Assembly (NCBI GenBank): GCA_037576195.1
Contig: CM075102.1
Location: 12,276,001-12,340,000, forward strand
DNA from: Phytoseiulus persimilis
Lineage: Eukaryota > Arthropoda > Arachnida > Mesostigmata > Phytoseiidae
DNA length: 64,000 nucleotides
Reading direction: 5' to 3'
How positions within the stretch are numbered: the stretch's first letter is position 1; every line of letters begins with the position of its first letter. Below the pieces are notes generated by a model that was not told where the DNA came from, did not search any database, and was given only the letters and a program-made list of their open reading frames with translations. Of the stretch, positions 13,961-47,710 are shown one piece after another. Position numbers and translations under genes: made by a program.

Positions 13961-15868
13961 TCAATCCACTTCCTCGACCGTTGGTCCGCCAGCAGACGGC
14001 ATTGGGCCTTGTCCGTTACTTTGGTAGATTTTCGAGACAATCGGTCGGCAATGTTGCTCGAGCTCCTTCTGTTTGTGCTCATATTCTTCAGCGTCTGCCA
14101 ACTGGTTCGCATCGAGCCATGAGAGAGTTTGCTTGACTCGTTCAAGGACTGACTCCTTGTCTGAGTCGGACACTTTGTCCTTGATCCTGTCGAAATCCGT
14201 CTCGAACGTTCCTTTCAAGCTGAAACAGTAAGCCTCGAGGGCGTTCTTCGCAGAGATCTTCTTCTTCATCTTATCGTCTTCATCTCGGTACTTCTCAGCT
14301 TCGTTCACCATGCGCTCGATGTCATCCTTTGAGAGTCTTCCTTTGTCGTTGGTAATAGTGATCTTGTTCTGTTTACCAGACGATTTGTCGACCGCCGAGA
14401 CGTTCAGGATTCCATTGGCATCGATGTCAAAGGTGACTTCAATCTGTGGAACTCCTCTGGGTGCGGGGGCGAGTCCGGTGAGGTCGAAAACGCCGAGCCT
14501 ATTGTTGTCCTTTGTCATCGCTCGTTCTCCTTCGAAAACTTGAATGGTGACAGCTGGTTGGTTATCGGCGTACGTTGTGAACGTCTGCGTCTGACGAGTT
14601 GGAACGGTGGAGTTGCGCTTGATGAGAGTAGTCATAACTCCGCCAGCAGTCTCCAACCCCAGGGACAATGGTGTGACATCGATCAAGAGCAGATCTTGTA
14701 CAGCTTCAGATTTGTCGCCGTTCAGAATGGCCGCCTGGACTGCGGCACCGTGGGCAACGGCTTCGTCGGGGTTGATCGATTTGTTCAGTTCTTTGCCGTT
14801 GAAGAAATCTTGCAGAAGTTTCTGGATTCGAGGAATTCGAGTGGAACCTCCGACCAGGACGATTTCGTGGATTTTCGATTTGTCCATCTTGGCGTCTCGC
14901 AGCGCTTTCTCCACCGGCTCGAGGGTTGAGCGGAACAGATCTGAGCAAAGTTCTTCGAATCTCGCTCTGGTGATGGCAGAATAGAAATCGATCCCTTCGA
15001 ACAGGGAGTCGATCTCGATCGAGGCTTGAGTCGACGAGGAAAGGGTTCTCTTTGCTCGCTCACAAGCTGTCCTGAGGCGTCGCAGAGCGCGGGCGTTCTT
15101 CGAGATGTCCTTCCGATGTTTGCGACGGAACTCCTCGACGAAGTGGTTCACCATGCGGTTGTCAAAGTCTTCCCCACCGAGATGGGTATCACCGGCTGTT
15201 GCTTTGACCTCGAACACACCGTCTTCAATCGAGAGGATAGAAACGTCAAATGTTCCTCCGCCCAGATCGAAGATGAGAACGTTGTTCTCGCCCGAAGTCA
15301 CTTTCCTTTTGTCCAGGCCGTAAGCGATTGCAGCAGCCGTTGGTTCGTTGATGATCCGCATGACGTTGAGTCCGGCGATGACACCAGCGTCCTTCGTGGC
15401 TTGACGTTGCGAGTCGTTGAAATAGGCCGGCACCGTGATGACAGCGTCCCGAATAGGCTGACCCAAGTATGCTTCAGCGGTTTCGCGCATCTTCGTCAAC
15501 ACCATGGACGAGATCTCTTCCGGATAGAAGCTTTTGCGCTCACCTTTGAAGTCCACTTGGATTTTGGGACGACCTGAATCGTTGGCTACTTTGAATGACC
15601 AGTGTTTCATGTCACCCTGGATACTGGAGTCGTCGTAGCGTCGCCCGATGAGACGTTTCGCGTCGAAGACTGTGTTCTCGGGGTTCATCGCGGCCTGGTT
15701 CTTGGCGGCATCGCCGATGAGACGTTCGGTATCTGTGAAGGCAACGTAGGATGGAGTCGTTCTGTTGCCTTGCTCGTTGGCGATGATCTCCACCTTTCCG
15801 TGTTGGAAAACTCCAACACAAGAATAGGTGGTGCCGAGATCGATTCCGATTGCTGGCCCTTTAACCAT
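13961..15868 (-). CDS. Hsp70: Heat shock protein 70, cytosolic, copy 1
   Basis: Intronless, 635 residues, from an ATG at 15868 to a protein ending in EEVD, the C-terminal tag that binds TPR co-chaperones and marks cytosolic/nuclear Hsp70s. The ATPase domain shows IDLGTTYS (residues 8-15), [12 protein letters not shown] and [13 protein letters not shown]; the substrate-binding domain and helical lid follow. It is an ATP-driven chaperone that binds unfolded segments. The lack of introns and the TATA box plus heat-shock elements upstream point to a heat-inducible gene. It differs from the plus-strand copy at one residue: His instead of Tyr at position 373, inside the otherwise conserved NPDEAVAxGAAVQ block of the ATPase domain (CAC at 14750-14752). 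Sequence identity between the copies starts 16 nt before the ATG and stops near the end of the coding region. Confidence 0.97.
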
Positions 15869-16073
15869 TGTGAGATGCTGACTGGTTGATGGTAGGCTTC
15901 ACTGAATCCGGTATCAGGATGTGGCGCTGGAAGAAGTTATTTCGAACTCGTAGGCTTCTGAGTGTAACTTGCGTTTTACAACTGAGTTTGCACGTAGAGT
16001 CGCGAACTGTTCGCGTTTGTCAACCAACTTTGAGCGTCTTCGGTTAGTGATGGTCGAGCTGTCGCGCGCCGAT

Positions 16074-18734: not shown

Positions 18735-18742
18735 TATATAAG
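18735..18742 (+). promoter_or_regulatory. TATA box of plus-strand Hsp70
   Basis: TATATAAG, followed about 30 bp downstream by a TCATTCACT stretch that could be the start site. The start codon is about 180 bp further on. Confidence 0.75.
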
Positions 18743-18924
18743 GCTGGAGCAGCGGGAAGTCAGCATCATTCACTAACCCAGTGAACTTCAGTGCGTGTCA
18801 CGAAACACCTACAACGTTTCGCTCCAAGTGCGAGAAAGTGCTTCGCGAATACTCTGTGATCCTACCCACGTATTTCATTCAATTCCTCTTGTGGAAAATA
18901 CAGCGCATCAGTCAGCATCTCACA

Positions 18925-20832
18925 ATGGTTAAAGGACCAGCAATCGGAATCGATCTCGGCACCACCTATTCTTGTGTTGGAGTTTTCCAACACGGAAAGG
19001 TGGAGATCATCGCCAACGAGCAAGGCAACCGAACGACTCCATCCTACGTTGCCTTCACAGATACCGAACGTCTCATCGGCGATGCCGCCAAGAACCAGGC
19101 CGCGATGAACCCCGAGAACACAGTCTTCGACGCGAAACGTCTCATCGGGCGACGCTACGACGACTCCAGTATCCAGGGTGACATGAAACACTGGTCATTC
19201 AAAGTAGCCAACGATTCAGGTCGTCCCAAAATCCAAGTGGACTTCAAAGGTGAGCGCAAAAGCTTCTATCCGGAAGAGATCTCGTCCATGGTGTTGACGA
19301 AGATGCGCGAAACCGCTGAAGCATACTTGGGTCAGCCTATTCGGGACGCTGTCATCACGGTGCCGGCCTATTTCAACGACTCGCAACGTCAAGCCACGAA
19401 GGACGCTGGTGTCATCGCCGGACTCAACGTCATGCGGATCATCAACGAACCAACGGCTGCTGCAATCGCTTACGGCCTGGACAAAAGGAAAGTGACTTCG
19501 GGCGAGAACAACGTTCTCATCTTCGATCTGGGCGGAGGAACATTTGACGTTTCTATCCTCTCGATTGAAGACGGTGTGTTCGAGGTCAAAGCAACAGCCG
19601 GTGATACCCATCTCGGTGGGGAAGACTTTGACAACCGCATGGTGAACCACTTCGTCGAGGAGTTCCGTCGCAAACATCGGAAGGACATCTCGAAGAACGC
19701 CCGCGCTCTGCGACGCCTCAGGACAGCTTGTGAGCGAGCAAAGAGAACCCTTTCCTCGTCGACTCAAGCCTCGATCGAGATCGACTCCCTGTTCGAAGGG
19801 ATCGATTTCTATTCTGCCATCACCAGAGCGAGATTCGAAGAACTTTGCTCAGATCTGTTCCGCTCAACCCTCGAGCCGGTGGAGAAAGCGCTGCGAGACG
19901 CCAAGATGGACAAATCGAAAATCCACGAAATCGTCCTGGTCGGAGGTTCCACTCGAATTCCTCGAATCCAGAAACTTCTGCAAGATTTCTTCAACGGCAA
20001 AGAACTGAACAAATCGATCAACCCCGACGAAGCCGTTGCCTACGGTGCCGCAGTCCAGGCGGCCATTCTGAACGGCGACAAATCTGAAGCTGTACAAGAT
20101 CTGCTCTTGATCGATGTCACACCATTGTCCCTGGGGTTGGAGACTGCTGGCGGAGTTATGACTACTCTCATCAAGCGCAACTCCACCGTTCCAACTCGTC
20201 AGACGCAGACGTTCACAACGTACGCCGATAACCAACCAGCTGTCACCATTCAAGTTTTCGAAGGAGAACGAGCCATGACAAAGGACAACAATAGGCTCGG
20301 TGTTTTCGACCTCACCGGACTCGCCCCCGCTCCCAGAGGAGTTCCACAGATTGAAGTCACCTTTGACATCGATGCCAATGGAATCCTGAACGTCTCGGCG
20401 GTCGACAAATCGTCTGGCAAACAGAACAAGATCACTATTACCAACGACAAAGGAAGACTCTCAAAGGATGACATCGAGCGCATGGTGAACGAAGCTGAAA
20501 AGTACCGAGATGAAGACGATAAGATGAAGAAGAAAATCTCTGCGAAGAACGCCCTCGAGGCTTACTGTTTCAGCTTGAAAGGAACGTTCGAGACGGATTT
20601 CGACAGGATCAAAGACAAAGTGTCCGACTCAGACAAGGAGTCAGTCCTTGAACGAGTCAAGCAAACTCTCTCATGGCTCGATGCGAACCAGTTGGCAGAC
20701 GCTGAAGAATATGAGCACAAACAGAAGGAGCTCGAGCAACATTGCCGACCGATTGTCTCGAAAATCTACCAAAGTAACGGACAAGGTCCAATGCCGTCTG
20801 CTGGCGGACCAACGGTCGAAGAAGTAGATTAG
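18925..20832 (+). CDS. Hsp70: Heat shock protein 70, cytosolic, copy 2
   Basis: Intronless, 635 residues, EEVD terminus. The frame stays open upstream to 18781 but has no ATG before 18925, and 18925 aligns with the start of copy 1, so this is the start. Same domain order and signatures as copy 1; here residue 373 is the normal Tyr (TAC at 20041-20043). The coding sequence matches copy 1 almost base for base with a few silent changes, while the flanks beyond 16 nt upstream of the ATG and just past the stop are unrelated. Such sharply bounded identity suggests gene conversion between inverted copies or a recent duplication. AATAAA at 20981 serves as its poly(A) signal. Confidence 0.97.
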
Positions 20833-36608: not shown

Positions 36609-37098
36609 CTTGCACGCCTAGAAGAACCCAACTTCGACTGAACGTGTTCGAAACGATCGCAGTGCCGCTAGCGGCGCTGTATGACGCCGCCGCAACATCG
36701 GCCGGCAGCAGACGACCCGAGAATGAGGACATGGTTTTGGATGATGAACCGCACTTTCCAGCTATGTTCAGAATGCACAGATTCTCTTCTGTAGCCTATG
36801 CTCTGTCCCTGATCTATAAGATCCCAAGGCGGCGCTAGATTCCCGAATTCGGGATGAAAAGTCCACCGCGCCATTACTTCACAGGCGGTGCCGGCCAACA
36901 AGTGAGCATGCTGATCGCCCTTTCCCGAACTCTCGTGGTAAACAACTCTTAAGTCGTATGGTCGATGTGCTGACGCTCAGAAACAGTTGGAATATTGATC
37001 AGCGCTCATCATTAGTGATCCTGATATTGTTCTGTCGGGCAGTTTTATGGACACGATAAGCACCAGTATCCAGTGACCGATAACGTTTATAGTTCAGA
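36609..37098. promoter_or_regulatory. Shared bidirectional promoter region, eIF3e / HBS1
   Basis: 490 bp between divergent start codons of two translation-related genes. No TATA box stands out, as is usual for housekeeping promoters. It must hold the start sites and 5' UTRs of both genes. Confidence 0.5.
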
Positions 37099-40000
37099 AT
37101 GGCGAGACACCGGAATATTCGTTCGATGAACTACGAAGAGGGTGAGTAGATACAGTCGGCTATCCATCATGTGTTGTTGAATGTAAGACCCACGAAGTTT
37201 CCTTCTTCGTGTCCTCCCGACGAAATTCTTCAGTGACTCGCTCATCCGACATTATTCTGGTTCATTCTCGGGAGTCGAGGAGGGTTCGGATACTCCGCCA
37301 GTGCTCGAATATTTTGGAGGTTGATATTATCGATCAGAGAAGCCACCAGGCATTTTGGTACCGTTGGAAGTCTTCAGTGGAGATCCTCATCGAACAAATC
37401 TCATGGAGCCGGCAAGACCCTGATACGCGACGACTCGCTGTGAAGCTCTAAAATCGTATTTCTGGATCTGTATCGCTCGATCGCATGTATCCAGTACAGG
37501 CCGTAGATATAGACACCTGGCCGCTTATGGAGAGAACCAATCGAAAAAGAGAATCGTAGTTTCTCATGCGCACTATGCCGGTCCCGACCTGCGGGAAACC
37601 CCGTGATGGTGGATGGAAATCGGAAAAACTCACAAAGGAGTCGGCTTATCTTTGTCCTGTCGGCATTTTCACAGTCGTCGCGTAACGCTGGAGCAGCGCA
37701 GTGAACAGCTGAGTGGCGTTTGTGGCCGCCGAAACGGTTTGGAACATTCGTATAGTGTTCGAACTGGGAAGAAGTGAGCTGAGAACACGATTGAGCGAAT
37801 CGAGTGCACAACGCTGAAAACGCGAACGCTGGCGCGGCCTTTCGGATACTGAAGCAGGTTCCCAAATGGTAGCCTTATTCTGGGGAAATGAATCCGTTTT
37901 AGAATCATTGTCCCAAATACTCTTCAGATTTCGATGATTACACCAGCGACGAATTCGGAACATCGCTCGATAATGGCTGCATCACGCCAGAAACAGAGAA
38001 CATGTATACATACGCCAGGGAGCGGCACGAGTCGGTATCGAAGATTTGGGAGCCCCAGCAGCCGCCAGTCAGGGAGGAAGATGAGGTTCGTTGTTGGTGC
38101 TGTTCCTGCTATCGCTTTCTCTTGTTTTCATTAGCCAGTATACCCTAAGAGTAAGAACCCATTCTCCGGTGCGATGGGTCGAGCTGCTTCTCACCCGGTG
38201 CATTCTCATGCGCTTACAGGAGACACCGGAAAAAGATCTCGAAGTGGAGGACGTGATCGACACCGGACAGATTCCGATCGAAGATCAGGGAAAACTGTTC
38301 GATTGTTTGGAAACGATGAGGAGCGTGATCGGAGACTCCGTTCCAGAGGCAGTTCTTCGAGAGGCTGCCTTGAGTCAAAACTTCGATGCTGATAAGGCTC
38401 TCAACGTTGTCTTCGATCGTCAAAAGAATCCGTCAAAACCCCAGAAGAAGCCAGTAACTGCAATTGGTGAGAACCCGTGCCATAGATTCTGAGATTCAAT
38501 ATCGGTTCCCCAGATTTTCCGTTACAGAGCGCTGGTGGCAAGAAATTCATTTGGTTCACCTTCTTTCCTTCCATGTGACTTTTCCTGCTCTCTTCATTCA
38601 CGTAAGGTAAGTTTCGTCGCCACAAGATCCATTGACCAGCCTCTTGAATGGAGAAAACTTTAGTATCGACGACTTGCTGAATGCTCCGGCCGCTCTGGAT
38701 CCGCTGATGGCGGTTCTCGGGGAATCTAGTTTCGCCTCTCAGCTGCCAACGAATGAAGTGCCTGCAATCGATCTTGGAGCCCTGTTGAACGTCTCGAGCA
38801 GTGCTGATGTGAAGCCCATCGGGAGTCTCATGGAGGCACCGATCTCGACCTACGACATTTTCGGTGATGCTGAAAACGCCGCACCCAGCCTCGACCTCAG
38901 ACAGTTCTTGAACGATACGTCCCAGAAGAATGACGTACTCGACGAACTCATGAGGAGGGTCGATTGCGTCGAAGCTCAACAGGGTTCTTTCACGTCCCCA
39001 TCGTCGACCTCTGTTTCTGCCGTGCGAACAATTCTTCAGAACTTACGGAACAGGAACGGATGCGATTTGAGAGGAGTCCTCGATTGGTACAAGCGTTACT
39101 TGAATTCGCGAGATCAGTTCTCTTTTCGAGAGCCATCTCCTGACGACGTAGTTAGAAGCGCGATGGAGAATAAAGTTTTCGGCGGTAGGTTTGAGAGGAG
39201 AACGAAACCAGGCTTGTCGCAGCTAATGAAAACGCAAGGACCACGATTCGGGATGCGGAACTTCGCGAGCTCAAATTCCCTCTCTCTTTCCCCGCAGAAT
39301 CTCGCAAAGCACAAACAGGTCAATCCAAACGAACGGAAACAACCCAGCACACTTACCAGACAGTGCCACCTATCGATGTTCCGACGCGAATCACATTTAA
39401 TGGCAAGGATTCCGCTCCGAAAAATCCCAGCAAGGCGGAGGTGAAAGCTGGCGATGCCAAGCCCGCGAAGGATTCGGCGGTGGGCAAAGATCCGACCCGG
39501 AGGAAACTTTCACCGGACACTCCGAAGGCCGCTGTTTCTCCCAAACCTGCGAGAAACCCCAAGATGGACCCAAAAGCTATCCAAGATCTCTACGAAAAAG
39601 AGCGAACCAGCATGAAGCCCCTGTTAAATCTTGTGGTCGTCGGACACGTGGATGCTGGGAAAAGCACCCTTATGGGCCATCTACTTTACTTAACTGGAAA
39701 CGTCAGCAGGAAAACCATGGCGAAATACGAACATGTGAGATCCGTTGCTTCCAACCAAATTGAGATGAAGTTGTCATCCCGTGCAAGTTGAATGTGGAGT
39801 CACTCTTGAGATTCCCTCATCATTTTCATTCCCTTGGGTTCCCAGGAATCGAAGAAACAAGGAAAAGCTTCCTTCGCCTACGCTTGGGTTTTGGACGAAA
39901 CTTCGGAGGAGCGCGCCAGAGGCATTACGATGGACATGGCCTACGCTAAATTACAGACTGAGAACAGGTGAGCTCTCCACGCGATCTTCCCGATCTGAAT

Positions 40001-41333
40001 CTCAAACAGCTCTTGTTAGGAGTTATTCACCTTTTGTAACTTTCCTATTACAGATGTATCAATATACTCGATGCTCCTGGTCACAAAGATTTCATCCCGA
40101 ACATGATCACGGGGGCAGCTCAGGCGGACGTTGCCATACTCGTTATCAACGCTACCAAAGGCGAATTCGAAACCGGTTTTGAACTCGGAGGTCAGACCCG
40201 AGAACACACAATGCTCGTCAGATCTTTAGGAGTTTCCCAACTTTCCGTCGCGGTCAACAAGCTGGACACTTGCCAGTGGTCCGAGAAACGCTTCAACGAA
40301 ATCGTCGCCACACTGAAACCATTCTTGAAGCAAACCGGATTCGCCGACTCGTTGGTCTCGTTTGTTCCATGCAGTGGGCTCTCCGGTGTCAATCTCAATG
40401 AGCGCAGCGAGTTGCCGGAATTGACCAAATGGTACAAAGGACCGTGCCTTCTTGAAACTGTGGACAAAATGGAACCACCCCCACGACCGATCACACGCCC
40501 TCTCCGGATGTGTGTCGCCGATGTATTCAAAGGAATGCAATCCGGTGTTTGCGTCAGCGGCAAAATCGAGTCCGGCTGCATGTCCCAAGGCGACAAATTG
40601 GTCATAATGCCGTCCCAGGAACCTTGCGTGATTCGATGTAGGTCCCTCAAGTTTTCCATTCTAGTCATCTTCAAAATCGATTCAAGGACCATTCCAACAG
40701 CTGGATATAGAGAGTGTCATGTCAGCCACGTTCACTCTAATGGAACTCATCTTTTCTTCCTCAGCTATGCTCATCGACGATTTCCCCCACAACCGCGCAT
40801 ACGCCGGAGATAGTGTGCTCGTTAACCTCGACAAGTGTGACCCTGCGCAGATTGCGGTCGGATCTGTGGTGTGCGATCCGAACGAGCCCATAAGATCTGT
40901 GACGAAATTCGAAGCAAAAGTGGTTATTTTCAATATCGACATCCCAATAATCAAGGGCTCCCCCGTGGTTTTGCATTTCCAATCGTTGAGTGAGCAAGCT
41001 TTCTTCGGAAAACTCGTCAAGGAACTCAACAGGAACACCGGAGAGGTTGTCAGAGAGAAACCCAGGTCAGTCTTATCGAGTTTGAAGAGGCGAGCACCTT
41101 CGAGATACGTATTGCTTGGAAGCGGTGGCTGATGATGGATGACCAGCCGGTAACTGATACTGAACTCGGATCATTCCAGATTCCTGAGTAAGAACAGCAG
41201 TGGAGTGGTTGTTATCAAGGTTGCGAGACCGATCTGTGTTGAGCTGTACCAGGACTCCAAGGAACTCGGCCGGATAACCTTGCGACAGGCGGGACAAACC
41301 ATCGCCGCAGGGGTGGTTACGGCTTTGTTATGA
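37099..41333 (+). CDS. HBS1: HBS1-like translational GTPase (HBS1/SKI7 gene)
   Basis: HBS1 form: exons 37099-37141, 37928-38085, 38220-38466, 39298-39734, 39846-39967, 40054-40637, 40765-41065, 41180-41333; 2046 nt, 681 residues (human HBS1L 684). The start [14 protein letters not shown] and the acidic stretch [11 protein letters not shown] match HBS1L. An HBS1 N-domain follows ([20 protein letters not shown]). The GTPase has GHVDAGKS (G1), RGITMD (G2 region), DAPGHKDF (G3), VNKLD (G4) and SGLSG (G5), then the two beta-barrel domains to the C terminus. HBS1 with Pelota frees stalled ribosomes in no-go and non-stop decay. Between the N-domain exon and the GTPase exon lies an optional in-frame exon (separate entry). 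AATAAA is at 41364. Confidence 0.95.
38612..39184 (+). other. SKI7-like alternative exon of HBS1
   Basis: Open from 38611. Plausible acceptors end at 38611 or 38626 and the donor GGCG|GTAGGT lies at 39185. Either choice gives an exon of 573 or 558 nt that enters and leaves in phase 1, the same phase as the flanking HBS1 exons, so it can be included or skipped without a frame change. If the donor is not used the frame runs to a stop at 39442-39444 and gives a protein lacking the GTPase, like human HBS1L isoform 3. The translation has repeated short leucine motifs ([23 protein letters not shown]) and [15 protein letters not shown] and the S.xxLL motifs are features I associate with the exosome/SKI-binding SKI7-like part of HBS1/SKI7 genes. 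Alternative splicing itself is inferred. Confidence 0.75.
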
Positions 41334-41512
41334 TTGAAAACTTGGTTATCTGAGAGGGGTGGAAATAAACGCTCGCTGTTATGAGTTTCATTCAACATGG
41401 ACTAGTATGTGATTCGGGTATTCGGGTACGTGGATGCAGGGATAATCATCACTAGAATTCGTTTCCCGTTGGAATTCTCAGTGAACGCGCGGACTTCGGG
41501 TAAGATTCGACC

Positions 41513-41518
41513 TTTATT
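41513..41518 (-). terminator. Poly(A) signal of COMMD10
   Basis: AATAAA on the minus strand about 110 bp after the COMMD10 stop. The 3' ends of HBS1 and COMMD10 converge within under 300 bp, so their UTRs may overlap (HBS1 signal at 41364 on plus). Confidence 0.55.
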
Positions 41519-41626
41519 CGGATGCGGAACAGGTAGATGGGAATCTGTCAAAGCATGTTGACCTCTCCCCTCGTGATCGATCACGCTGACTAGTTTCACG
41601 GGTACTCTCAGTTTCCATCGTCGCTC

Positions 41627-42414
41627 CTAGTCCGCTGTCAGCAGAGCATCGACTTCTTTCTGTATTTTCTGGATATCGTCGAATAACTTCTCGAGTTGCG
41701 CCCTGTCCAAGTCGAGAACCTTGTTTTCTTCACCGATCCGTAGGGACAACGAAACCATAGGCTGGGGGTTGGCTACGTTCGCATGGATCTCCCAACCGGC
41801 GAGGGAGAGCCGTTTGCCCTGCAACAAGATTTTTGTCACTGATTCCTTCGTTTGAGAACATCGTTCGTCAGTGTGTGGAAATTATCAGTCCTCTTGTTCG
41901 TCTGTCACACTGTCCCCACCTGGATAACCTGATCGCCCCTAGCCCTGGTCACCAACTGCTGTGCATGGAGTGCCCAGATAGAAGCGAGTTTCTCCGAGTG
42001 GCCCGCGGAGAAACCGACTTCTTGCAGCTTTTGCAAGAGCGCCAAGGGCTTCGTTAGTTGAAGGGTGCAAGCATTGAAAATGCTCTGGAGTCCTTGGAGC
42101 ACAACTGAGAGCTCTGTTATGGTGAGCTTGAGCGAGTCACCTGGAAAGCTTTCCACGTTCTATGAAGCGTTTCGTAGACACGCATCGCATCAGTTCGGCG
42201 CGAGCTCGATCGGGAACACTGACTCGAGTGTCAGCTCTCGGTCAGTCTACGGCTTAGCATTCCACTGACCGAAGTGTCTTTCTGTTGACGGCGTTGACTC
42301 TCCATTCATTCGAGAAATCACGATATTGCACAGGGCTTCAAACTCTGTCACCGAGATTTCATTCAGCGTTGGCAGAGCTTCTTTGATGCACCGGGTTTCC
42401 CATGAGGAGAACAT
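41627..42414 (-). CDS. COMMD10: COMM domain-containing protein 10
   Basis: Three exons on the minus strand: 42414-42270, 42140-41920, 41818-41627; 558 nt, 185 residues (human 202), with phases 1 and 0 agreeing. The N-terminal helical part (CIKEALPTLNEISVTEF; LSVVLQGLQSIFNACTLQLT; KPLALLQKLQEVGFSA) aligns with the COMMD10 HN domain. The C-terminal COMM domain starts KRLSLAGWEIHANVA and ends in the helix LEKLFDDIQKIQKEVDALL. COMMD proteins form the ring of the Commander complex, which works in endosomal recycling and copper and NF-kB control. The ATG at 42414 was chosen as the first Met in the exon; a short upstream exon is possible. It is divergent from SF3B3. Confidence 0.85.
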
Positions 42415-43183
42415 GTTTGTTTCAAGCGCGAACCGCTCGCGAAGTTGTCCCCTGGGATTATACAACGGGACACATTCACAGGATCGGCGAAAGCATTCTG
42501 AGGGAGAGATCCACTAAACACCTGACCAACAGACCACAGTGGAATGTGGTAGATTGAGCAGGGGGTGTCGCCAGTACTGTCAAAATACTTCCGCTCTTTG
42601 TTTGTTTACATTCATCAAGCGCCAAGTTCAGAAGTCGACTGCTCTTCCTCATCGGTCACTGCTGCGACGTGCAGTAGGAGGAGGCGGGACCAGAGGTTCA
42701 CGCTATTCGGACCAATCCAACCGATCGTCGGTCAATGAAAGGGAGCCGAGGCTTTTTGACGTCGGAGATCCTCCTTCCCTGTCTCTCCGGAGAAATCCAT
42801 GGTCATCACACAGTGCTGACGGAAATTGAGCGATGCATCATCGTGGAGCGCGAAATTTCAAACGTCAGCGGCGGCGGCTCCCTGGTGAAAGCAAAACATC
42901 GCACCTCAAGCGCGCCGATAAAACAAACTGCTGGAAACAGCGGAATTTCCCTCAATTTCTCGCCGGATAGTTTCTCTAACGATTGACTAAGGAGAGAACC
43001 AGAGCTGCAAGCTCGGGTCAGTGCACGGTTCGGGGAGTTGAGCGTTCCCGGCGTGATTTTTGATAACGTTTCGGTCATTATCTCATGTGAACCGTGGTCT
43101 ACAATCTCTGAGAACCCTGTGACACGGCTTGAATTCACCGGACGCTACAATCGGAAACTCTCCTTGCAGCCTCCTGCAGCGAA
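42415..43183. promoter_or_regulatory. Divergent promoter region, COMMD10 / SF3B3
   Basis: 769 bp between start codons; it contains no recognisable coding sequence or TATA box. Both 5' UTRs fall here. Confidence 0.45.
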
Positions 43184-46100
43184 ATGCATTTGTACAATCT
43201 CACTCTACAACACGCCACTTCCATCACGGCGTCTTGTCATGGGAATTTCTCCGGCCACAAGCAGCAAGAAATCGCTGTCGCCAAAGGCAAGATCCTTGAA
43301 ATCCTCAAACCGGATTCGAACACCGGCAAAGTGCATACCGTTTATGCAACCGACGTTTTCGGTGTGATCCGGAGCTTAATGAGCTTCCGTCTGACCGGTG
43401 GAAGCAAAGATTATCTGATAGTCGGTGAGTTCTGAAGCTTGTCCCGTCGCGGTTTCTCTTATCATATGACAGCCTGGTGAAATCGTCGTCCGATTGAACA
43501 GAGTCATCCTTTCGGCTCTTTGGTTACAGGTTCAGATTCTGGTCGGATCTGCATTCTGGAGTTCAACCCAGCCAAGAATGTGCTTGAAAAAGTCCACATG
43601 GAAACGTTCGGGAAGTCTGGTTGTCGTCGAATCGTGCCGGGACAGTATTTGGCGGTCGATCCCAAGGGCCGAGCGGTCATGATCGGAGCTGTCGAGAAAC
43701 AGAAGCTTGTGTACATACTCAACCGAGACTCGAACGCTCGGCTCACGATTTCTTCGCCGCTGGAAGCACACAAAAGCAACACGCTCGTTTATCACATGGT
43801 CGGAGTCGATGTCGGATTCGAGAATCCCGTATTCGCTTGCATCGAGCTCGACTACGAGGAGGCGGACAACGACCATACCGGCGAAGCCGCCAAGAAAGCA
43901 CTTCAGAGCCTCACTTTCTACGAACTCGACCTGGGTCTTAATCACGTGGTGAGGAAATATTCCGAGCCCCTGGAAGAACCGAGCAATTTTCTGATCGCCG
44001 TACCGGGTGGCCTCGATGGGCCATCAGGGGTTCTGGTGTGTTCAGAGAACTTCATAACGTACAAAAACTTGGGAGATCAGGCCGACATCCGATGCCCAAT
44101 CCCTCGTCGACGGAATGACCTCGACGATCCCGAGAGAGGGATGTTGTTCGTGTGTTCGACGCAGCATAAAACGAAGTCGATGTTCTTCTTCTTGGCACAA
44201 ACCGAACAAGGAGACATTTTCAAGATCACGTTGGAGTTCGACGATGACGCAGTGACAGAAATCAAACTGAAATACTTCGACTCGCTTCCCGTCGCTCAGA
44301 CGATGCACGTTCTGAAATCAGGATTCCTATTCGTCGCATCGGAGTTCGGGAATCACGCCCTGTACCAGATCGCTCACCTCGGAGACAATACTGACGAGCC
44401 GGAGTTCTCATCTATTTTCCCTCTGGAGGAAGGTGACACATTTTTTTTCCTCCCTCGAGACCTCAAGAATTTGGTGTTGGTCGATGAAATGGACTCCCTG
44501 TCCCCGATCATGTGCTCGAGGGTAGCGGATCTCACCAACGAAGACACCCCGCAACTCTATGCGGCCTGTGGACGTGGTCCTCGGTCCACGATGCGTGTCT
44601 TGCGTCACGGTTTGGAAGTGAGTGAAATGGCCGTTTCGGAACTACCCGGGAACCCGAGCGCCGTTTGGACGGTGAAGAAAGATTGGATGGTGAGTCACCG
44701 CCGTATTGCTGAACTTTGCGGAGTTGTCGAGTCATCTGTGGTGCTCGCTTGACGAAAGCTCGGCGAAAGCTCTTCTGCGACTTTGGTTTTCCGTTTCCAG
44801 ATCAGTACGACGCCTACATCGTCGTGTCTTTCGTGAACGCCACCCTGGTGCTCAGCATTGGGGAGACTGTTGAAGAAGTAACAGACTCGGGTTTCTTGGG
44901 TACGACCCCGACCCTGGCTTGTCATCAGATCGGTCATGATGCTCTCGTACAAATCTATCCTGAGGGCATCAGACACATACGAGCAGATCGCAGAGTCAAT
45001 GAATGGAGAACGCCGGGTAAAAAATTGATCGTCAAGTGCGCCGTCAATCAACGTCAAGTCGTCATAGCTCTCACTGGCGGCGAACTGGTGTATTTTGAAA
45101 TGGACGCCTCCGGTCAGCTCAATGAATGGACCGAACGCAAAGAAATGAACAGCGACGTGCTCTGCATGGCGCTGGGCTCGATTCCCTCCCTCGAACAGAG
45201 ATCCAACTTCCTAGCGGTCGGCTCGTCCGACGGCACTGTCCGTGTCCTGACGCTGGATCCGAAAGACTGCCTGTCGCCCGTCTCGATGCAGGCGACTCCG
45301 GAAGCCAATCCAGAATCCTTGGCAATCGGTAACTCTCCTCTCTCAACTCTAGATATATTAACTCGGATCCATCCTGTGACCCAGAATCAGGAGCAGACCA
45401 GATTTTTCGGGAAATGCGGAGAATACTGGAAACACCCCGTGTTCTGCCGTACAGACTTATCAAATATTACGGGGTGTTTTCCGTATCTCCCGTAGCAAGG
45501 AAAATCCAGAGACCTTATTCGGGGCTGGAGTTAAGCTTCTTCCCTCTTTCAGTCGATATGTCTGGACACGGCGAGGGAGCGAAAAGTTCGGCATTCTACT
45601 TGAACATAGGTCTTCAGAACGGAACCTTGAAGAGAATCGTGCTCGACGCTGTCAGTGGTGAAATGTCCGATACACGCACCCGGTTCCTTGGTTCGAGGAG
45701 TGTGAAGCTGTTCAAGGTCAAGATGCAAGGGACTGACGCCGTACTGGCGATGTCTTCCCGGTGCTGGCTGTCGTATCTTTTCCAGAATCGATTCCATCTC
45801 ACGCCTTTGTCGTACGATTCTCTCGAGTACGCGTCGGGATTCTGCTCGGAGCAATGTCCCGAAGGTATTGTGGCCATCGCTGGCAACACACTACGCATTC
45901 TAGCGCTGGAAAAGCTCGGCGCCGTCTTCAACCAAGTCAGCGCCCCCCTCTCTTTCACACCGCGATCGTTCGTGATCGACAAGAAATCCCAAAAGTTGAT
46001 TGTGATCGAAACTGATCATAACGCTTACACAGACTCAGTGAAAGAGAGACGGAAGCAGCACGTCGCCGAGGAAATGATTGAAGCCGCCGGCGAAGCAGAA

Positions 46101-47710
46101 CAGGAGATGGCCGCGGAGCTCGCGGCCGCCTTCCTGTCCGAAGACCTTCCCGAATCGCAATTCGGAGCGCCAAGGGCTGGTAAGAAACATTGGGCTTCTG
46201 CGATTCGCATCCTGAACCCTTCGGACCTCTCGACGGTGTACAAGGTCAAATTGGAACAGAACGAAGCAGCCGTCAGTGTGGCCCTGGTGAACTTTGACAA
46301 ATCGCCGGACCCCATACTCCTGGTCGGGATCGCGAAGGATCTTCAGCTTAGTCCCCGCGAATGCCGGAACTCGTTCGTCAATGCCTACAGAGTCGTCAAG
46401 GACTGCACAGAGCTGGAATTGGTCCACACCACAGTCATGGATGACGTTCCTCAAGCCATGTGCAACTTTGGCAACCGGGTCCTCATTGGCGTGGGCCGAT
46501 GCTTGAGAATTTACGATTTCGGCAAGAAGAAGATGCTGCGGAAGTGCGAAAATAAACACATTCCCAATCTGATCGTCACCATCAACGCCATCGGGAATCG
46601 CATCGTGGTTGGAGACGTTCAAGAAAGCTTCTTCTTCATCAGGTGAACCGGAGTTTCAAATTTTCAAAGTTTTCTCCATTCCGAAGTCGCCCCACTGGTG
46701 GGATCAGGGGCGTACCCAGCATTTTTTTTTGGGGGGGGGGGAGATGTTTGACGATGGTGATCATCATCATCGTCGCGAGTTCTTCATGACGCAATCAATA
46801 TGGTTCTTCCCACTTCTTCAGCATCCCCCCCCCCCTCTTCCCTGGGTACGCCACTGGATGGGACTCGTTGAATTGTTGCGCGACGCATCTAGATCTGGTG
46901 CTACGCTCCGATCCTTCCAGGTACCGAATGCAAGAGAATCAGCTGATCATATTCGCCGATGACTTCACTCCCCGGTGGACGACCGCGGCGTGCATGATCG
47001 ACTACAGGACTGTCGTGGGCGGCGACAAATTCGGGAACATGTACATCCTCCGATTACCTTCAAATACGTCGGATGACGTCGACGAGGACCCGACGGGAGT
47101 GCGGTCACTCTGGGATCGAGGATGGCTGGGTGGAGCCGGCCAAAAAGCCGACATACTGTGCTTGACCCACGTTGGCGAACTGATTGTGTCGATTCAAAAG
47201 ACCGCGTTGATCCCGGTGGCCCGGAGGCTATCGTATACACGACGATAGCCGGTGGCGTCGGTGCATTGATTCCGTTCTCATCGAAAGATGACCACGAATT
47301 CTTCCAGCATCTGGAAATGTACATGAGAACCGAACATCCGCCGATCTGCGGACGTGACCACCTGTCGTACAAAAGCTACTACTTCCCAGTCAAGGTGAGC
47401 TGAGGGTCCGGCTTCGAGGTGGTGTTCCTGTCTTGTACATTCCTCCCCAAGCGCACCGTGGCGTTTGAGTTGTGCATTCATTCCACGGTGCGAGCCGCTA
47501 CGCGATTGAATATCTCCGGGAATCGTTGGTCAGTGGTAAAGAGGCTAATCCACATAATTTAACTTCCAGGCCGTGATTGATGGCGACTTGTGTGAACAGT
47601 ATAACTCACTCGACTCGGGCAAGCAGAAACAGATCGCTGATGAACTGGAGCGACTGCCCTTCGAGGTCGCCAAGAAGCTTGAAGACATTCGAACAAAGTT
47701 TGCCTTCTAG
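43184..47710 (+). CDS. SF3B3: Splicing factor 3B subunit 3 (SF3b130/SAP130), with a frameshift
   Basis: Exons: 43184-43424, 43530-44689, 44806-45328, 45553-46642, 46921-47394, 47570-47710; about 1209 residues once one missing base is allowed for (human 1217). The start MHLYNLTLQHATS and blocks such as CHGNFSGHKQQEIAV, TFGKSGCRRIVPGQ, LEKLGAVFNQV, GEAEQEMAAELAAAFL and RDHLSYKSYYFPVK are diagnostic. It folds as three beta-propellers of the CPSF-A/DDB1 type and is a core part of the U2 snRNP SF3b complex that recognises the branch site. In exon 5 the frame breaks near 47213-47217: TTGATCCCG is followed by GTGGCCCGG where the family needs one more G (IPGGPEAIVYTT). Exon 3 requires the second of two tandem acceptors (CAG|ATCAG|TAC). 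AATAAA at 47826. Confidence 0.95.
46705..46855. mobile_element. Small foldback element in SF3B3 intron 4
   Basis: CAGGGGCGTACCCAG at 46705-46719 faces CTGGGTACGCCACTG at 46841-46855, its reverse complement with one mismatch. Poly-T and poly-G runs lie just inside the left arm and poly-C inside the right. The 151-bp unit lies wholly inside the intron. It resembles short non-autonomous elements with GCGTACCCAG ends; class and duplication site unresolved. Confidence 0.6.

Follow-up and report, generated by a model that had tools for sequence, protein, structure and literature searches.

In a 64-kb stretch of the Phytoseiulus persimilis genome (C2:12276001-12340000, here called the window), we identified a gene that probably encodes both HBS1 and SKI7, with a cassette exon of 573 nt as the element that would separate the two proteins. 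Skipping of this exon would give HBS1, the partner GTPase of Pelota that rescues stalled ribosomes, and its inclusion would give a SKI7-type protein that still carries the GTPase. This arrangement had been described in an initial annotation of the window, whose observation was confirmed as a whole, with every coordinate checking out. The interpretation offered there is partly supported: the adaptor segment is well supported, and the symmetric cassette that keeps the GTPase is predicted by the reading frames.

The gene was rebuilt from the sequence as a complete HBS1 gene of eight exons with GT-AG introns (37099-41333, + strand; all coordinates are those of the window unless a contig is named, and a slash within a sequence marks the splice junction). 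It combines an HBS1_N domain, matched by Pfam on exon 3 (E 5e-10), with an EF-Tu-like GTPase, for which GTP_EFTU matched the frame 39195-39791 (E 4e-10) and an additional GTPase match was obtained at 40055-40477. The rebuilt gene bore out the annotated end of exon 3 at 38466 (donor ATTG/gtgaga), the start of the GTPase exon at 39298 (acceptor ccgcag/AATC) and their direct join in phase 1; with the cassette skipped, the 38466/39298 junction gives an HBS1 of 682 amino acids. In the searched genome (181 Mb, 127 contigs), a profile search gave one HBS1_N match, and the DNA of 37928-41334 is present in one copy, as is the cassette exon. Neither a retrocopy nor a second HBS1 gene was found genome-wide using the exon protein or the DNA of 37928-41334. 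The parts of the gene outside the cassette are the following.

37099-37141, 37928-38085 and 38220-38466, + strand: HBS1 exons 1-3 of the gene model, the common N-terminus with the HBS1_N (UBA-like) domain.
39298-39734, 39846-39967, 40054-40637, 40765-41065 and 41180-41333 (with TGA), + strand: GTPase exons of the gene model, GTP_EFTU.
41364-41369, + strand: AATAAA found by motif scan, the presumed poly(A) signal of the gene.

Between exon 3 and the GTPase exons, the cassette frame is open over 38611-39444. As annotated, the acceptor AGs at 38610-38611 and 38625-38626 are both in frame, the donor GCG/gtaggt lies at 39184/39185, both cassette junctions are in phase 1, and read-through of the frame stops at 39442-39444. 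Inclusion adds 191 residues with acceptor 38611 or 186 residues with acceptor 38626, and the longer form is a protein of 873 amino acids in which the GTPase is kept. Additionally, an AG that the initial annotation did not list (38605-38606) precedes both of these acceptors; its use shifts the frame and leads to a stop after nine residues. All three cassette AGs (38606, 38611 and 38626) are AAG, in contrast to the CAG found in 7 of the 7 other acceptors of the gene, and this fits the expectation for a regulated exon.

38559-38606, + strand: pyrimidine tract, 85% C/T in the part 38559-38598, together with the cassette's first AG at 38605-38606.
38612-39184, + strand: putative SKI7 cassette exon of the gene model, 573 nt long and flanked by phase 1 junctions, with 38627 as a second possible start, single copy in the genome.
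39185-39190, + strand: cassette donor gtaggt, a hexamer identical to that at donor 40638 of an intron in the GTPase part.
39169-39174, + strand: AATAAA within the cassette, ten bases before the exon end, found by motif scan.

The alignment to human SKI7 gives good support to the proposal in the initial annotation that the cassette codes for an exosome adaptor segment of SKI7 type. The reference was the exosome-binding tail of human SKI7 (PDB 9g8m chain E, named there isoform 2 of HBS1-like protein). The local alignment of the exon to this tail scored 58, which none of 5000 shuffles reached (maximum 51), and the exon ranked first of the 171 open reading frames of the window (stop to stop, at least 100 amino acids), the runner-up scoring 40. 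The match consists of two blocks in the last third of the exon, aligned to human RRTLDLYKTFLYSR and PFDFKSASPDDIVKANQKKAF, with gaps of 16 and 1.

39079-39111, + strand: LDWYK block, matching LDLYKTFLYSR of human SKI7; without Patch 4, the score is reached by 103 of 20000 shuffles.
39115-39180, + strand: Patch 4-like motif and the stretch after it; the score is reached by 0 of 20000 shuffles.

Human LDLYKTFLYSR is part of the helix called alpha3, and a DLYKAF/DLYKTF helix is common to Arabidopsis and human SKI7 according to the text of PMC6143672; a block similar to this DLYK[TA]F type, LDWYKRYL, was found in the exon. The same source describes Patch 4 as being present in all SKI7 proteins and as not conserved in HBS1 proteins, and the Patch 4-like motif of the mite is likewise present in the cassette and absent from the skip form. 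Moreover, 9 of 14 residues are the same as in the zebrafish P4 peptide given in PMC7924785. When the Patch-4 25-mer was compared to 177635 PDB sequences at E <= 10, the 3 matches obtained were all Superkiller protein 7 constructs, with E-values of 0.41-0.79 that are not significant alone. These three constructs represent one protein, that of yeast.

All of the peptide motifs named in the initial annotation, including DLRQFLND, are encoded by the exon. It had counted three leucine motifs; those three are indeed encoded, and the pattern [IL]xx[LF]LN brings the count to four.

38632-38649, + strand: leucine motif 1, LTSLLN, pattern match, not in the initial annotation.
38665-38682, + strand: leucine motif 2, IDDLLN, pattern match.
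38773-38790, + strand: leucine motif 3, LGALLN, pattern match.
38896-38913, + strand: leucine motif 4, LRQFLN, pattern match.

Four occurrences were reached in 0 of 20000 shuffles (highest 2), for a pattern that was picked after the motifs had been seen; a hindsight-free repeat score was weak, with 8 of 300 shuffles attaining it, and the 7-mers that it chose were other than the leucine motifs. At the DNA level, the exon contains only short direct repeats (two-copy families of up to 17 nt), so the leucine motifs do not derive from a recent DNA duplication. An identity as PAM2 motifs was rejected because the F that PAM2 requires is missing. In human SKI7, as described in PMC11540850, the SKI-binding region comprises residues 372-546, and its helix 451-464 contacts SKI3 via Leu454 and Ile458. 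The leucine motifs of the mite lie N-terminal to the exosome blocks, as the SKI3-binding stretch does in human SKI7, and have the same i, i+4 hydrophobic spacing; from this position and spacing, we infer that they contact SKI3. Of the two kinds of contact suggested in the initial annotation, exosome or SKI, the latter is the better guess by position, and exosome contacts cannot be assigned to these motifs.

The coding status of the cassette is supported by homology and is not provable from codon usage alone. An open frame of 191 codons is expected by chance with a probability of 0.0007 in a first-order Markov model and of 5e-5 given the intron base composition (20000 draws each). The cassette has a codon score of -0.04 bits per codon, compared to +0.13 for the HBS1 exons and to -0.27 and -0.25 for the other + frames of the exon. 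The codon model was trained on 3518 codons from the longest open frame in 7 of 8 GTPase loci, the stop-filled L006 being excluded, and the training is imperfect in that the longest frame in L007 and L008 differs from the matched frame. The excluded locus is an EF-Tu-like GTPase match on another contig (C26:75671-76534) with nine in-frame stops, and represents a broken copy, a pseudogene or an intron-bearing stretch. A gene on the opposite strand was also considered; the antisense open reading frame of 213 amino acids has no Pfam match at E <= 0.001 and was taken as a mirror frame, although the antisense strand does contain a frame that equals the sense frame in codon score.

Several observations weigh against the proposal of a single HBS1/SKI7 gene with such a cassette. 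Its codon usage is weak: the 24 frames of eight introns span -0.54 to +0.03, with two of them above the cassette, its score is attained by 5.4% of 2538 windows of the same length, and an antisense frame shares the value of -0.04. The whole cassette translation gave no PDB match at E <= 10 and no Pfam match at E <= 1, and the PDB matches of the Patch-4 25-mer did not include the chain of human SKI7. The RxxxFxxxL motif is absent from the exon, in which [RK]...[FILMVYW]...L and [RK]PS.F have no match either; this motif is described as not conserved in all eukaryotes in PMC6143672 and as weak in Drosophila and yeast in PMC7924785. Finally, the EXOSC1 (CSL4) domain was not found in the genome search, for which the control was detected in 1 of 14 genomes, nor were Ski2_N and TPR_22, for which no control was detected; this domain search was run exon by exon and easily misses domains split by introns.

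The frames and splice sites fit both the skip form and the include form, so both are permitted. The simplest reading is the predicted plant-like cassette that keeps the GTPase; the production of both forms, the retention of the GTPase on inclusion and each of the binding partners are inferred. In the proposed mechanism, inclusion through acceptor 38611 (or 38626) and donor 39184 would yield the SKI7-type protein with its GTPase, the inserted segment would bind the exosome through the Patch-4 motif (CSL4) and the LDxYK helix, and the leucine-motif stretch upstream would probably touch the SKI complex.

If the exon were constitutive, every transcript would include the cassette and the gene would make one bifunctional HBS1-SKI7 protein with no switch. 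With the cassette included, the frame is open throughout and contains the GTPase, and the SKI7 blocks are intact, as this alternative needs; nevertheless, we consider it rather unlikely, given the AAG acceptors, the first of which leads to a stop, the direct 38466/39298 junction that is likewise in frame, and the fact that the two functions are kept apart in other lineages, as described in PMC6143672 and PMC3597508.

The exon could also be terminal as in vertebrates, with donor 39184 unused and the protein ending at the stop 39442-39444 as a SKI7 lacking the GTPase. Such a form would be consistent with the frame remaining open for about 260 nt beyond the donor, with vertebrate SKI7 lacking the GTPase (PMC7924785) and with the exon being used there as the last one (PMC3597508), as far as these sources describe it. 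However, the stop falls within the GTPase exon, and the extension has an intron-like codon score of -0.275. Neither AATAAA nor ATTAAA occurs in 39175-41363 to end a vertebrate-like terminal exon, so that, with none before 41364, the transcript would continue far beyond its stop in an intron-bearing 3' tail. Moreover, the human protein ends 16 residues past the CSL4-binding stretch (602-616 of 632, PMC11540850), whereas here the frame continues. Taken together, a terminal exon appears very unlikely. The AATAAA inside the cassette is one of two in 36900-42600 (39169 and 41364); cleavage after it could produce a non-stop RNA, as there is no in-frame stop before the likely site, although the signal may well be due to chance, since the + strand of the 64 kb holds 14 of them.

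A further alternative is that the cassette is a decayed SKI7 exon, now spliced mostly at the first AG (38606), so that the resulting stop tunes the level of HBS1. Of the AGs that follow the pyrimidine tract, the first does change the frame so that a stop comes nine residues on, and the weak codon usage would agree with decay, but 191 codons are still open and the two functional blocks are intact, which makes a fossil or poison exon extremely improbable.

The beginning of the cassette holds one more element, which was missed in the initial annotation.

38604-38612, + strand: AAG/GTAAGT, a perfect 5' splice site consensus adjoining the first acceptor (38606/38607), candidate recursive splice site.

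The cassette start is the single site on the + strand of the 64 kb with the 9-mer [CA]AGGTAAGT, and the other strand has one more. Among 33468 scored AG sites (from the window and twenty 10-kb stretches, four of which adjoin it; both strands, 528,000 strand-bases), 12 had an equally pyrimidine-rich tract, and only the cassette AG was then followed by GTAAG. Joining exon 3 to the first AG re-forms TTG/GTAAGT, which scores 5.2 compared to 3.0 for the cassette's own donor, using a weight matrix that was not fitted to this genome. The second AG, 5 nt on, removes this donor and restores the frame, which could allow the acceptor pair to work as a switch. Under such a recursive-splicing switch, use of the first AG (38606) would re-form ATTG/GTAAGT, after which a second splicing step would remove the whole cassette and leave HBS1, and use of the second AG (38611) would delete the donor, retain the exon and give SKI7 with the GTPase; a non-stop transcript formed through the AATAAA in the exon could provide additional feedback. 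In flies, competition between donors strongly determines inclusion, yet reporter inclusion tracked donor strength poorly (PMC8605326). Recursive splicing exons (RS-exons) undergo skipping at reduced levels of the exon junction complex, and incomplete repression contributes to the normal alternative splicing of several human exons, as reported in PMC6224609. A hidden alternative exon ending at donor 38606 was rejected: of its seven AG-started candidates (38470-38600), stops occur in the two whose length is divisible by three, and the other five shift the frame. Against recursive splicing, GTAAGGTAAG is a plain tandem 5-mer and directly repeated 5-mers occur here at 1.6 per kb, so the AAG/GTAAGT junction may be a chance duplication of GTAAG; additionally, the site has an AAG acceptor and lies in an intron of just 831 nt. 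We regard the recursive switch as unlikely. If true, whether ribosomes are rescued or the exosome is recruited would depend on a choice between acceptors 5 nt apart.

As for the genes of partner proteins, a SKI2 helicase was found on contig C113 (10255-10764, L012) in an open frame of 910 amino acids (best match Helicase SKI2W, E 8e-144, ahead of MTR4, 5e-93), and a Pelota gene was found on C1 (E 3e-33). C113 is not among the four large contigs, which are 28 to 55 Mb long. Regarding the neighbourhood, two long HSP70 frames, each with the full profile and about 3 kb apart, lie at 13964-15898 (- strand, 645 amino acids) and 18742-20829 (+ strand, 696 amino acids). Pieces of a beta-propeller gene of the RSE1/DDB1/CPSF1 family are located downstream of HBS1 at 43481-46643 (+ strand), and STAT-domain matches were obtained in the window, as fits an animal.

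Fungi (PMC3597508), plants (PMC6143672) and vertebrates (PMC7924785, PMC11540850) are already known, according to these texts, to encode HBS1 and SKI7 in one gene. In the open-licence literature (titles and abstract openings), none of the matches listed concerned SKI7 in mites or chelicerates, and no paper joined HBS1, SKI7 and recursive splicing. The new part is apparently the symmetric SKI7 exon that would keep the GTPase in an animal. If true, this would suggest that a layout like that of plants and fungi exists in arthropods and that the loss of the GTPase is limited to some animal lineages. One gene would thus probably supply both RNA quality-control proteins, HBS1 and SKI7, from a compact and testable locus in which the overlap of acceptor and donor is a concrete candidate for a splicing switch.

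The predicted mite gene most resembles plant HBS1/SKI7 of the At5g10630 type, as described in PMC6143672: a single gene in which a cassette adds the SKI7 part, the C-terminal GTPase is kept and Patch 4 is of the FxFxxPSPDD type. Unlike in plants, a single exon carries the leucine motifs, the LDxYK block and Patch 4, and the zinc finger that plants have before the cassette was not seen among the Pfam matches of the four scanned stretches of the mite gene, which exclude exons 1 and 2. As in isoform 3 of human and zebrafish HBS1L, which corresponds to SKI7 (PMC11540850, PMC7924785), the exon lies between shared N-terminal and GTPase exons, and the block order of human SKI7, LDxYK and then SPDD[IV]V, is maintained. 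However, the vertebrate exon is described in these two sources as terminal and its protein as lacking the GTPase, whereas the symmetric mite exon joins the GTPase in frame; moreover, the two blocks are separated by 16 fewer residues in the mite than in human, and RxxxFxxxL is absent. With the fungal SKI7/HBS1 genes of Lachancea and Aspergillus described in PMC3597508, the mite gene shares the predicted production of two proteins with a common GTPase part from a single gene; the fungal genes use alternative 3' splice sites of one intron, and the mite gene would use a cassette. SKI7-like sequences are described from several invertebrate phyla in PMC6143672, in whose text arthropods are not among the invertebrate groups named, and from insects in PMC7924785, by whose description these arthropod relatives, including Drosophila, carry a weak Ski7-like motif; the available text of a Drosophila Hbs1 study (PMC6397311) mentions no isoforms. 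Finally, compared to the recursive splicing exons of PMC6224609 and PMC8605326, the candidate site is similar in that the acceptor adjoins a 5' splice site at the exon start and the exon's own donor is weaker, and differs in that an in-frame second acceptor 5 nt on, a tandem arrangement not described in the available text of these two studies, would delete the donor.
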